A DNA stretch of 64,000 nt from NCBI GenBank assembly GCA_024280995.1, contig JAMXLM010000037.1, positions 1 to 64,000 on the forward strand, given 5' to 3'. The translations under genes were made by a program, and so were the position numbers. The stretch comes from Candidatus Dormiibacterota bacterium. Its GTDB lineage: Bacteria > Chloroflexota > Dormibacteria > Dormibacterales > Dormibacteraceae. Shown here piece after piece: positions 49,611-54,369 of this stretch; the stretch's first letter is position 1; every line of letters begins with the position of its first letter. The notes under the pieces were generated by a model that ran no database searches, was not told where the DNA came from, and saw nothing but the letters and a program-made list of their open reading frames with translations.

Positions 49611-50086
49611 CAGAATGTCCCGCTCGTCTCCGACGATCGGGTGGCTCGTACGAGACCTCGCTTTTCCAGCTGAAAGAAAATCTGGCAGCCGAGGCAGTAA
49701 CCGAAGGCCAGGTTGACGAAAGCCAGGACGGCCACCAGCAACGCCAGCGCCAGCCCGACGACCGGCAGTGGGATCAGGAACACCGACGCCACCGCCAGGA
49801 ATACCCCGCCCAGTCCCTGGGCGAAGTTGTGGGGTTCAGGACGGTCTTCAACCGGCTGCGGTTTGACGATTCCGCGCGGCTTCAGGACCTGCAGGTAGAC
49901 CTGCTTGAACAGCGCCAGACCCGGTGCGAACGTGCCCAGCAAGAGCACGATCGCGAGCAGCGGGATCAGGACGAGAATCGGCCGCCACACCGCGCTGCCG
50001 ACGAACGCCACCAGCACGGTCGCGACGATCCCGGTCTGGTTGACCTTGAGCGCCGAGTGGTCGACGTATCGAACGACGGAGCTCAT
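49610..50086 (-). CDS. DUF4395 membrane protein
   Basis: A 158-residue protein with three to four helices. VDHSALKVNQTGIVATVLVAFV opens DUF4395 and FAQGLGGVFLAVASVFL... FVNLAFGYCLGCQIFFQLEKRG closes it; the CLGC pair in the last helix is characteristic and may exchange electrons with thioredoxin and sulfurtransferase partners. ATG at 50086 overlaps the sulfurtransferase stop by four bases; the ORF-track start is too early. Confidence 0.87.
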   Translation of the reverse strand: MSSVVRYVDHSALKVNQTGIVATVLVAFVGSAVWRPILVLIPLLAIVLLLGTFAPGLALFKQVYLQVLKPRGIVKPQPVEDRPEPHNFAQGLGGVFLAVASVFLIPLPVVGLALALLVAVLAFVNLAFGYCLGCQIFFQLEKRGLVRATRSSETSGTF

Positions 50087-50925
50087 TTCTCGATTGGCAC
50101 CCGAATCGAGCTTCCCCACTCGGTCCACGAGCCGTCGTAGTTCTTCACGTCCGGGTAACCGAGCAGTTCGTGCAGCACGAACCAGGTGTGCGCCGAGCGC
50201 TCGCCGATGCGGCAGTACGCGATCACCTCTTTGTTGGCGACCACGCCTTTGCCGCCGTAGATCTCGTGCAGCTCGTCGGCGGTCTTGAACGTGCCGTCCT
50301 CAGCGTTGACCGCGGTCGCCCAGGGGATGCTCGCCGCGGTGGGGATGTGCCCGCCGCGCTGGGCGCCCTCCTGCGGCAGATTCTCCGGCGCGAGGAGCTC
50401 GCCCGAGAACTCCTTCGGCGAACGAACGTCCACGAGAGCCGCCTTGCCGATCTTGTCGAGCACGTGCTCACGGAACGCACGGATCTTCTCGTTCTGCGAG
50501 CCGGCGAAGTGGTACGTGGTCGCGGCGTAGTCCGGCACGTCAGTCGCGTAAGCGCGTCCTTCCTTCTCCCACTTCACGCGGCCGCCGTCGACCAGCTGGA
50601 CCTTGTCGTGGCCGTAGTACTTCAGGGCCCAGTACGCGTAGGCCGCGAACCAGTTGTTGTTGTCGCCATACAGCACGATGGTCGTGTCGGGCGTGATGCC
50701 GCTCTTGCCGAGAAGCGCGGCCAGGGCCTCGCGTGAAGCGATGTCGCGAGCGACCTGGTCCTGCAAGTCGCGCTTCCAGTTCCAGCCGACGGCGCCCTCG
50801 ATGTGGCCCTTCTCGTAGTTGGTCGGGTCGACGTCGACCTCGACCAGTCGAAGGCCCGAGTCTTTCGCATGCTCGTTGATCCAATCGGTGGTTACGAGCG
50901 GCTTGGTCTGTGTTTGAGAGCTCAA
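50083..50925 (-). CDS. Thiosulfate/3-mercaptopyruvate sulfurtransferase (two rhodanese domains)
   Basis: A 280-residue tandem rhodanese. The first domain (TTDWINEHAKDSGLRLVEVDVDPTNYEKGHIEGAVGWNWKRDLQD) lacks the active Cys; the second (ALVDVRSPKEFSG... GHIPTAASIPW) has the active loop VIAYCRIGERSAH, with CRIGER as in thiosulfate:cyanide sulfurtransferases. I choose TTG 50925 because GGAGG lies eight bases before it. First gene of the operon sulfurtransferase-DUF4395-thioredoxin-binding protein, which points to handling of reactive sulfur. Confidence 0.88.
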   Translation of the reverse strand: MSSQTQTKPLVTTDWINEHAKDSGLRLVEVDVDPTNYEKGHIEGAVGWNWKRDLQDQVARDIASREALAALLGKSGITPDTTIVLYGDNNNWFAAYAYWALKYYGHDKVQLVDGGRVKWEKEGRAYATDVPDYAATTYHFAGSQNEKIRAFREHVLDKIGKAALVDVRSPKEFSGELLAPENLPQEGAQRGGHIPTAASIPWATAVNAEDGTFKTADELHEIYGGKGVVANKEVIAYCRIGERSAHTWFVLHELLGYPDVKNYDGSWTEWGSSIRVPIEK

Positions 50926-51125
50926 ATCCAATACCTCCAGGAAATGCAAATGACGTGTCGAACGGTTGCGGGAGAAACCGAGCGGTCGAGTGGGCGCGGC
51001 TGTGACGCCGCGAGCAAACGACCGGTGCTAGCTACAGAAGCAGGCCGGGATGTGGGTCAAACGCTGGGCAGGCCAGGCGAGGTCCTGCATAGGCGATCAA
51101 TTCTAGGAAACACCCGGCCGTAGCG
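50926..51125. other. 200-base divergent leader region
   Basis: Divergent gap between the sulfurtransferase and dapF-like genes. It holds a six-base-stem hairpin (CGCGGC/GCCGCG near 51000) and GC-rich stretches but no riboswitch or promoter I can name. The minus-strand leader of the sulfurtransferase would be long enough for control by attenuation. Confidence 0.3.
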
Positions 51126-51983
51126 GTGAATTCCCTGACAATTGCGAACGTGTCGCAAGTAGAGTTGTTCAAGTACCAGGCGCTGGGCAACGACTACCTG
51201 GTGATGGACCTGCCGGGGCCGCTTGACGAGATCGTGCCGCTGCTGCCGCGCATCTGCGACCGCCATTTCGGCGTCGGTTCCGACGGGCTGCTCGCCTTCG
51301 ACCCGCAGGCGATGACGGTGCGGATCTTCAACCCTGACCGCTCGGAGGCGCAGAAGAGCGGCAACGGCTTGCGAATCACCGCCGCCCATGCGGTCCTGGT
51401 GCACGGAGCCGGCGAAGCCTTCGAGCTGCGCACCGCGGACCGGCCCAACGCCGTGCGTGTGCTGAGCGTCGACGGCGCGGAGGTCGTCAGCGAGATCGAC
51501 ATCGGCCGCCCATCCTTCCGCGCCGCAGACCTGCCCGCGAACTTCGACGGCGAGCCCGAGCACGTCGACCTCGACACACCGGCCGGCCGCGCCGAAGCCG
51601 TGCTGGTTTCGGTCGGCAATCCGCACTGCGTGGTCTTCGGCGAGACGGTGACGAAGGAACGGTGCCTGGAGCTGGGGCCGCACCTGGAACGGCACCCCGC
51701 GTTTCCCGAGCGGACCAACGTGCAGCTCTGCGAGGTGGTCGATCGCACGCGCGTGCGCGCGGAGATCTGGGAGCGCGGTGCGGGCTACACGCTTGCGTCG
51801 GGCACAAGCGCGAGCGCGGTCGCGGCTGCGTGCATGCGAAGGGGACTGGTAGACGACAGCGTCATGGTCGAGATGCCTGGCGGAAATCTGTCCGTGCGGC
51901 GCGAGAGAAATGGCGACCTGGTTCAATCGGGTCCGGCGCGCCGAGTGTTCCGGGGGAGGATCGACCTGCTCGACTTCGCCTGA
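51126..51983 (+). CDS. Diaminopimelate epimerase family protein lacking both catalytic Cys
   Basis: A 285-residue DapF-fold protein. FKYQALGNDYLVMD, RHFGVGSDGLL, RIFNPDRSEAQKSGNGLRI, VSVGNPHCVVF, and WERGAGYTLASGTSASAVAAA all align with DapF. In true epimerases the motifs are CGNGxR and ACGTG(A) with one catalytic Cys each; here they are SGNGLR (Ser78) and ASGTSAS (Ser225). So a two-Cys racemisation is not possible; it may bind or act on another substrate or be a lyase-like relative. GTG 51126 or GTG 51150 may be the start. Confidence 0.85.
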   Translation: MNSLTIANVSQVELFKYQALGNDYLVMDLPGPLDEIVPLLPRICDRHFGVGSDGLLAFDPQAMTVRIFNPDRSEAQKSGNGLRITAAHAVLVHGAGEAFELRTADRPNAVRVLSVDGAEVVSEIDIGRPSFRAADLPANFDGEPEHVDLDTPAGRAEAVLVSVGNPHCVVFGETVTKERCLELGPHLERHPAFPERTNVQLCEVVDRTRVRAEIWERGAGYTLASGTSASAVAAACMRRGLVDDSVMVEMPGGNLSVRRERNGDLVQSGPARRVFRGRIDLLDFA

Positions 51984-51987
51984 CGAT

Positions 51988-54369
51988 CTAGCTCAGGGCG
52001 ACGTCGTCGACGAGCGTGTAGCTTGGGGTTGCCGGGTCACCGTCGTCATGGTTCACGAAAGTGATGGTCACGTAGCTCCCGGCGTGCGCCGACAGGTTGA
52101 CCGTGACCTTCGTCCACACAACGTTCTTCACACACACCGGCGTCTGCACGGTGGACACATCGCCCGTGACGCCGTCGAGCAATGTGGCCGTAAACCAATC
52201 GTTCTTGACCTTGTCCGCGCATACCGATCGGTACCAGAAGGTCAGCTTGCCGCCGGAGGCCGGAACGTCGAACGTCTGCCCCAGGGTGCTGGTCGAAGAG
52301 GCTGAGGCAGATCCGATCTGAGCGGCGAACGTGCCGGTGTGCGGCGCCGCGATGAAGTCCACGTCACCAGACCCCGTCCATCCAATCAAGCCGCTCTCGA
52401 ACCCGCCGTTCACGATGCCTTTCGGAACGACCGTCAGCGACAGGCTGGCCGAGTGCGTGTGGAAGCCGTTGGTACCTGTGACCGTGACCGTGTACACGCC
52501 GGGCGCAACACTGAATCCGGCGTTCAGCGTCATGATCGCGAGGCCGCCAGCCGAGATGGTGCTGTCGACGCTGGCGGTCGGGCCGCCCGGCGACACCGCC
52601 ACCGAGAGGGTGATCGGGCTTGGGCCCACGAGCGCCGTGGTCAGCACGTCGACTCGCGTCAGGTCGCCGTGCGCGAGCGTGGCCGATGACGGGTCGTACG
52701 CAATGGTGAAGTCTGGAATCGGCAGTACCTGCACGGTCACGTCGACATAGTGCGTGGCGACGCCCTCGGTCCCGACGACGCGGACTCCATACGTGCCAGG
52801 CGCCAGTGACGGCGCCGCGGTGATCGTCATCGTCGCCGCGCCACCGGCCATAACCGACGACGGGCTGAAGGACGCCGTGATGCCTGGGTCGTTGGTCAGG
52901 CTCGAGAGCGCGATCGTGCCCGTGCCGCCGACCGCGGTGGTGCTTACCGTGACTGCAGGCAGCGGGTTGCCCAGATACGCACCGACCGAGGTGCGGTCGA
53001 CCGAGATGGCGAAATCGCTGCCGATCCCCACGCCGTGAAGCGGGATGACAAGCGAGCCGCCTGGAACGTTGCCGGTGAACGTCAGCTGCCCGAAACGGTC
53101 GCCCGGGGCAGTTGGCCCGAACGTCACCAGGAACAAGCAGCTGCTGCCTGCCGCCAAGGGGTCGGGACCGGCGGGGCAGTCGCTGCTCGACACGGAGAAG
53201 TCGCCACTGACCGAGAGAGTCATGACGAGTGGACCCGTCCCGGAGCTGAGCACCGAGTAAATGGCCGGCTGGCTCGTCGCGCCCACGTCCACCGAACCGA
53301 ACTCACCGGCGGTCGTGTTCAGGGTCAGCTGCGGATTGCCCGCGGCGGTGACGATGCCAGGACCCAGCTCCCACGTGTCGGCATCGAATGTGTTCGGGTT
53401 CACGCCGGCGTTGAAACCACCGAAGAGCACCATGCGGCCGAGCGCGGAGTCGTAGACCATCGACTGGCCCGCTCGGACGCTTGGCGCCGCCGCCGTCCAA
53501 TCGCGCGCCCATTGAGAGCCGTCCCACTCCCACGTGTCGTTCTCCTCGCCAAGGCTGTACGGCTGGATGTGGTCTCCGCCGAAGAGGATCGTGCGGTCGC
53601 TCACCGGGTCGTACGCCATGGAATGCCAGAACCTCGCGTACGGCGAAACGCTGGGCGTCATCTGCGTCCAGCTCGCTCCGTCCCACTCCCACGTGTCGGC
53701 CATGCGCTGCCCGGCGTTTACATCGCGCCCGCCGAACAGCACGGTCTTGTTTCGAGTCGAGTCGAATGCCATCGCCGCGCCCTGACGAGGCGTCGGCGAG
53801 TTGGCCGGGCTGGCCTGCGTCCAGTTAGTCCCGTCGTACTCCCACGTCTCTGGCATGGCGATTCCAAACGGATTGAACTCGCCGAACACGACCATTCGAC
53901 CACGCGTTGAGTCGTAGGCCATCGCCGCCCAGACCATCGGTGGCGGGGACGTGGCGAGGACGCGTTTGGTCCATGTCGTTCCATCCCACTCCCACGTGTC
54001 CGAGCTCGTCGCAGTTGGTGTCGACCCACCGAAGAGCACCGAGACGTGTCGGGTGCTGTCGTAGGCCATCGCGGCTCCCGCAAGCACTGGCGGCGAGACG
54101 GGCGGCGATGGATTGGTCCACGTCGATCCGTCCCATTCCCAGGTGTCACCAAGGTTCGCGGCCCCGTTGGAGGAGCCTCCGAACACCACCATTCGATTGC
54201 GTAGCGAGTCGTAAGCACTCGCCGCAAACACACGAGCCGGCGGCGATGCGCTCGGCGCTTCCTGCTCCCAGTTGAGTGCCACAGCCGCGGCGGTCGCTGG
54301 TACCGGCCCCAGGACGGCCGCGCCGGCAATCGTGCCGACGATCGCCGCCCGCAGCCATGACATGCGCAT
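51988..54369 (-). CDS. Large secreted kelch-type multidomain protein
   Basis: A 793-residue secreted protein. Signal peptide (AAIVGTIAGAAVLGPVPATAAA), then six kelch-like blades of about 53 residues marked by 'MAYDSxRxxxVLFGG...DTWEWDGxxWT' (for example MVVFGGSSNGAANLGDTWEW). Then an ASH/choice-of-anchor-like domain (GSVDVGATSQPAIYSVLSSG), two or three Ig-like repeats (ITLSVAVSPGGPTASVDST) and a C-terminal carbohydrate-binding-like domain (VNGGFESGLIGWTGSGDVDF... FVNHDDGDPATPSYTLVDDVAL). Likely binds sugars or surfaces outside the cell. Convergent with dapF, four bases apart. Confidence 0.83.
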   Translation of the reverse strand: MRMSWLRAAIVGTIAGAAVLGPVPATAAAVALNWEQEAPSASPPARVFAASAYDSLRNRMVVFGGSSNGAANLGDTWEWDGSTWTNPSPPVSPPVLAGAAMAYDSTRHVSVLFGGSTPTATSSDTWEWDGTTWTKRVLATSPPPMVWAAMAYDSTRGRMVVFGEFNPFGIAMPETWEYDGTNWTQASPANSPTPRQGAAMAFDSTRNKTVLFGGRDVNAGQRMADTWEWDGASWTQMTPSVSPYARFWHSMAYDPVSDRTILFGGDHIQPYSLGEENDTWEWDGSQWARDWTAAAPSVRAGQSMVYDSALGRMVLFGGFNAGVNPNTFDADTWELGPGIVTAAGNPQLTLNTTAGEFGSVDVGATSQPAIYSVLSSGTGPLVMTLSVSGDFSVSSSDCPAGPDPLAAGSSCLFLVTFGPTAPGDRFGQLTFTGNVPGGSLVIPLHGVGIGSDFAISVDRTSVGAYLGNPLPAVTVSTTAVGGTGTIALSSLTNDPGITASFSPSSVMAGGAATMTITAAPSLAPGTYGVRVVGTEGVATHYVDVTVQVLPIPDFTIAYDPSSATLAHGDLTRVDVLTTALVGPSPITLSVAVSPGGPTASVDSTISAGGLAIMTLNAGFSVAPGVYTVTVTGTNGFHTHSASLSLTVVPKGIVNGGFESGLIGWTGSGDVDFIAAPHTGTFAAQIGSASASSTSTLGQTFDVPASGGKLTFWYRSVCADKVKNDWFTATLLDGVTGDVSTVQTPVCVKNVVWTKVTVNLSAHAGSYVTITFVNHDDGDPATPSYTLVDDVALS

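Follow-up and report, generated by a model that had tools for sequence, protein, structure and literature searches.

Diaminopimelate (DAP) epimerases of the DapF type are cofactor-independent enzymes that reviews and structural papers describe as thiol/thiolate enzymes, and two catalytic cysteines at helix N-termini are their hallmark. In the Anabaena enzyme, Asn66, Asn164, Asn197, Glu215, and Arg216 bind the distal end of DAP, and Arg216 has been linked to recognition of the L-centre of the substrate (PMC12039745). A histidine and a glutamate are called essential in DapF (PMC5885031), and a disulfide switch has been described for the enzyme of C. glutamicum (PMC5296763). O-ureidoserine racemase (7vdy), which has the DapF fold and acts on another substrate, retains the catalytic pair (scheme in PMC8142540). 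The histidine racemases CntK and HisR and the diaminobutyrate racemase PddB, all cofactor-independent and with a DapF-like fold, likewise use two cysteines and are nearly inactive as serine mutants; single Cys-to-Ser replacements removed most or all of the activity of HisR (PMC11602996) and PddB (PMC8225329). A hydroxyl, with a pKa of about 16 compared with about 10 for a thiol, is a far poorer acid (PMC8225329). Given this weak acidity and the mostly inactive mutants, a plain exchange of cysteine for serine is not expected to work.

Two further groups show what may follow from changes in a catalytic pair. In the proline racemase superfamily, a distant relation in fold that includes the hydroxyproline epimerases and trans-3-hydroxyproline dehydratases, swapping a catalytic residue changes the reaction. 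Aspartate/glutamate racemases of the EcL-DER type have a fold other than that of DapF. EcL-DER, which is also cofactor-independent, provides a natural precedent for the loss of one thiol, since one cysteine is replaced by threonine; unlike in the protein described below, only one of the two cysteines is affected, and the reaction runs one way (PMC8142540).

The gene considered here occupies positions 51126 to 51983 of the forward strand in the window, that is, the whole 64,000-nucleotide stretch of Dormibacterota DNA that was analysed, and encodes a DapF homologue of 285 aa with serine at both catalytic positions. A search of open-licence literature, whose coverage is not exhaustive, returned no published description of a Ser/Ser DapF.

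A DapF homologue with serine at both catalytic positions

The translated ORF agrees with the initial annotation, which had noticed SGNGLR and ASGTSAS in place of both catalytic-cysteine motifs. The first serine, Ser78 (codon AGC, 51357 to 51359, forward strand), lies within SEAQKSGNGLR, and the second, Ser225 (codon TCG, 51798 to 51800, forward strand), lies in ASGTSAS within the segment WERGAGYTLASGTSAS. Both align with the catalytic cysteines, which are Cys74 and Cys218 of the E. coli enzyme by alignment numbering. The GTG start at 51126 is doubtful, and translation probably begins at the GTG at 51150, because relatives align only from VSQVEL onward; the low AF2 confidence at residues 1–7 is in keeping with this later start.

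In profile searches, the protein scored 190.9 bits against TIGR00652 (DapF), for which the curated equivalog cut-off is 114.65, and PF01678 was found twice, once in each half. The AF2 model (pLDDT 93.5, pTM 0.88) has the two-domain DapF fold, and Ser78 and Ser225 immediately precede helices 79–93 and 226–238, as the cysteine pair does in DapF. The best Foldseek matches were solved DapF structures (TMq 0.70–0.87) and O-ureidoserine racemase, with a range of 0.70–0.89 for the two together, and structures of PhzF, hydroxyproline epimerase, and dehydratase matched less well (about 0.63–0.73; about 0.66–0.73 for the proline racemase superfamily). Proline racemase, PhzF, and hydroxyproline dehydratase gave no family-library match for this protein and are not its closest fold. 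The proposal of a DapF-fold protein that lacks both catalytic cysteines is borne out. The cysteine pair that defines the family is missing, so we file the protein as “DapF-like, Ser/Ser clade” and not as DapF proper.

Apart from the catalytic pair, the substrate site resembles that of Cys/Cys DapF (TIGR00652; E. coli, H. influenzae, Anabaena, P. aeruginosa). All the distal DAP contacts of the Anabaena enzyme have counterparts (N69, N165, N198, E216, and R217), which are invariant in the alignment of the Ser clade, and the essential histidine and glutamate near the catalytic pair correspond to H167 and E216, present in 86 of 90 and 90 of 90 rows, respectively. The GNG and GT carboxylate-binding turns are shared, as is the position of the catalytic residues at helix N-termini. 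Cys44 and Cys168 are conserved and are read as structural because they are also common in Cys/Cys DapF. Rescue by a nearby thiol was considered and rejected for the window protein, which lacks the second cysteine, five residues beyond the catalytic position, that is frequent in canonical DapF and present in 73% of the Ser clade.

The Ser/Ser clade beyond Dormibacterota

Scanning genome contigs with two short peptide patterns yielded at least 582 confirmed places and at least 80 loci. The patterns exclude sites 78 and 225 and include sites 70, 77, and 221, so part of the conservation at these three follows from the selection. Serine occupies both sites in all 90 Ser-type rows of the wider alignment, some of which are near-duplicates, and the hallmark pair of cysteines is therefore missing from the window protein and from the whole set. 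Conditioned on the pattern WERGAGYT alone, Pro70 was found in 53 of 53 cases and Lys or Arg77 in 49 of 53; conditioned on the other pattern alone, Tyr221 was found in 48 of 56. Neither Lys77 nor Tyr221 is strictly invariant in the clade, whose marking residues are Pro70, Lys/Arg77, Ile84, Gln200, Tyr221, Ser228, and Met250.

A tree of Ser/Ser members had been recommended, and it recovers a real group: in a maximum-likelihood analysis of 94 rows, 75 Ser/Ser proteins formed one clade, separate from Cys/Cys DapF and set against 19 other rows, with support of 100/100, a result that holds within the sample and is not a census because rows were chosen by similarity. Among the matches listed, the clade spans more than ten phyla, including Dormibacterota, Chloroflexota, Acidobacteriota, Spirochaetota, Verrucomicrobiota, Planctomycetota, Pseudomonadota, Bacillota, Nitrospirota, Bacteroidota, Aquificota, Thermodesulfobacteriota, and others. 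We consider the Ser/Ser proteins an old branch of the DapF family. Members of the Geothrix/Holophagaceae type (L061, L074, L078, and L087) are shorter by one residue ahead of the second serine (GYT-PASGSS) and carry aspartate for asparagine in the GNG turn (SGDG). A search of the plasmid collection gave no match at 60% identity or above.

Copy number was examined in 50 genomes with a Ser/Ser protein, most of them MAGs of unstated completeness. The Ser/Ser protein was the single TIGR00652 match in 34 of them, two of which are large assemblies of isolates, Flavobacterium panacis and Maribellus luteus. None of these 34 genomes has a meso-DAP dehydrogenase (Ddh) above cut-off, and 22 of them, counted from the table, have LysA above cut-off; the LysA match of Maribellus luteus falls just under it. 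The one genome with Ddh above cut-off (G101) also has a Cys/Cys DapF. A sole copy is no proof of activity and need not be essential, since, according to a title cited in PMC6721243, there are E. coli strains mutated in dapF that build LL-DAP into their wall. The other 16 genomes contain further DapF-type matches, mostly Cys/Cys where the motif was read, and for this reason the Ser/Ser protein may do something else there; in two cases (G081 and G094), the additional protein is a very distant one. Two Pseudomonas genomes (G088 and G091; loci L068 and L071) combine a Cys/Cys with a Ser/Ser DapF, and in this genus the latter could serve another purpose.

Several lineages have the Ser/Ser gene next to DAP genes, in the arrangements dapB-dapF-dapL (L065), lysA-dapF (L080), lysA-dapF-dapL (L096), dapF-dapL (L111, L116), and dapF-lysA (L113, L125). 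In Dadabacteria and similar genomes, it is found near genes that, by eye, we take to resemble mqnA, mqnD, and an amidohydrolase of the futalosine pathway (L063, L067, L072, L073, L076, L094, L097, L103, L109, L118, and L121).

The DAP/lysine pathway in the host and its class

The host is a soil bacterium whose genome is a 3.02 Mb MAG, 94.4% complete. Those of its near relatives that have names are soil MAGs, under the labels Chloroflexi CF_* and Candidatus Dormiibacterota. Searches with PF01678 and TIGR00652 for the second, Cys/Cys dapF envisaged by the initial annotation returned only the window gene. The host's family within Dormibacterota is represented by 42 genomes, of which 38 have a DapF match, with one gene per genome. 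The four genomes without a match (G006, G012, G028, and G064) are 59–78% complete, three others (G001, G024, and G031) have fragments only, and all readable copies are Ser/Ser, down to 57% identity. As the MAGs are incomplete, a second dapF may have escaped notice. Two genomes from another family of the same class (G039 and G059) have an ordinary Cys/Cys DapF adjoining a dapL-like gene.

The neighbourhood of the gene is conserved in the host's family, yet it is no DAP operon. A divergent gene for a two-domain protein resembling rhodanese and 3-mercaptopyruvate sulfurtransferase, assigned by profile matches (50083 to 50949, reverse strand), adjoins the Ser/Ser dapF in all 11 of the family loci checked (the window, L035–L038, and L040–L045). 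Directly downstream of the window dapF, a large Kelch-repeat protein is encoded on the opposite strand at 51988 to 54369.

Pathway genes were sought by family-profile searches and with single stretches of sequence. The host has DapB, LysA, and a DapL-like aminotransferase that scored 570 bits, just below the curated cut-off of 593. Most members of its family have a DapL-like protein in the range of about 550–580 bits, and six (G020, G023, G027, G029, G032, and G036) have no strong DapL match. The family combines the Ser/Ser DapF with DapB and LysA, the latter missed in some incomplete MAGs, and the two genomes with Cys/Cys DapF have the same set of DapB, LysA, and DapL-like genes. The other sampled genomes of the class have neither DapF nor DapB and mostly no LysA. 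The class (G000–G060) is thus split, and most of its genomes either carry DapB, DapF, and LysA or miss them.

Two bypasses were considered and rejected. Ddh was not found above cut-off in 61 relatives, and LysX of the AAA route to lysine, which exceeded its cut-off in 16 genomes of the class, all among those without DapF, did not reach it in the host's family. The protein therefore stands in a DAP/lysine pathway with LysA, with an LL-DAP source in the form of the sub-cut-off DapL match, and with no Ddh bypass. With no second DapF, no Ddh, and DapB, LysA, and mostly a DapL-like protein present, the Ser/Ser protein is, as judged from gene content, the only candidate among known families for the step from LL- to meso-DAP in this family. 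The initial annotation had stated that a sole dapF in an organism making meso-DAP, with measured epimerase activity, would refute its own reading; the genomic half of that description is what we found, namely a sole DapF together with DapB, DapL-like protein, and LysA and without Ddh.

In MurE (host gene G000:C18:162978-164387, L238; further loci L208–L237), the host's family carries the motif TTDDPL, compared with EDPR in other families of the class. The diamino acid in the host's wall may therefore differ, for instance by being lysine, and lysine synthesis may be the sole use of meso-DAP.

Proposed function and competing readings

We propose, with a probability of roughly 0.6, that the window protein is the working DAP epimerase of its host, which would convert LL-DAP to meso-DAP with a non-thiol acid/base pair. 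The suggestion that it has another reaction or a binding role is the weaker reading, given the sole DapF, the presence of pathway partners, and the intact DAP-recognition residues. Under our proposal, the DapL-like aminotransferase would make LL-DAP, the Ser/Ser DapF would convert it to meso-DAP, and LysA would lead on to lysine. Proton removal and return would pass through the hydroxyls of Ser78 and Ser225 in a closed, dry site that keeps His167 and Glu216. The serines might be activated by clade-specific neighbours, Lys/Arg77 beside Ser78 and Tyr221 and Ser228 near Ser225, or else Lys77, Tyr221, or Ser228 might itself be the base; we hold the assignment of these particular residues with little confidence. 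That several other sites changed at once in the Ser clade suggests a rebuilt active site. Freedom from a disulfide switch between catalytic cysteines could be a benefit of the serine pair, which is speculation.

Even odds may be given to a broader proposal, of a natural and widespread type of DAP epimerase that works without a thiol. It would invert the unactivated alpha-carbon of an amino acid by a Ser/Ser or a Ser plus Lys/Tyr acid-base pair where a thiol/thiolate pair is considered necessary, would be insensitive to disulfide formation in the active site, and is predicted to escape trapping via a catalytic cysteine by aziridine inhibitors. If it holds, a natural thiol-free branch, apparently at the same step, would represent a second solution to this chemistry and a test case for the shift of an enzyme from sulfur- to oxygen-based proton transfer. 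It would also bear on automatic annotation and flag bacteria likely to resist thiol-directed DapF inhibitors and oxidation. In the sole-copy genomes, which would be expected to require this step, either serine does the chemistry or another enzyme goes unrecognised.

The second branch of this choice corresponds to a reading that we judge improbable, in which the protein binds DAP or a close relative after losing epimerase activity, as a regulator, pseudo-enzyme, or partner of another enzyme, and an unrecognised epimerase supplies meso-DAP; the DAP epimerase of many phyla would then still have to be found. The near-dead Cys-to-Ser mutants of DapF-fold racemases fit this reading, as do the 16 genomes with further DapF-type matches, but neither a second DapF nor Ddh is seen above cut-off in the other 34 or in the whole Dormibacterota family, H167 and E216, the companions in proton transfer, are retained, and in some lineages the gene shares its locus with lysA and dapL.

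It is less likely still that the protein catalyses something else on a substrate resembling DAP, for instance an elimination, an isomerisation, or the racemisation of a different amino acid, in the manner of the proline racemase relatives. DapF-fold enzymes with altered pockets do act on histidine, O-ureidoserine, and diaminobutyrate, and the genes resembling those of the futalosine (menaquinone) pathway in Dadabacteria would suit such a role. However, every residue that contacts the distal amino acid of DAP is invariant, presence of the gene in the class follows the DAP/lysine genes, and the structural matches to PhzF, hydroxyproline epimerase, and dehydratase are the poorer ones.

We find it very hard to credit that DAP epimerisation is no longer needed, with downstream enzymes taking LL-DAP and the protein surviving as a relic or in a minor role. 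The E. coli mutants mentioned above and the DDPL motif of MurE in place of the EDPR of the class lend it some plausibility, but the serine pair is kept at 57% identity or more across the host's family with all DAP contacts retained, as would not be expected of a relic, and LysA acts on the D-centre of meso-DAP.

Finally, a sequencing or assembly error, conceivable in a MAG, is ruled out for practical purposes, since dozens of independent genomes share both serines and each site is encoded by two codon sets. Chance, a base-calling error, and local decay are likewise discounted, because all readable copies in the host's family and all 90 Ser-type rows are Ser/Ser. At 65 loci outside Dormibacterota, Ser78 is encoded by AGY in 62 and TCN in 3, and Ser225 by TCN in 60 and AGY in 5, a pattern that we interpret as retention of serine across both codon sets at both sites.
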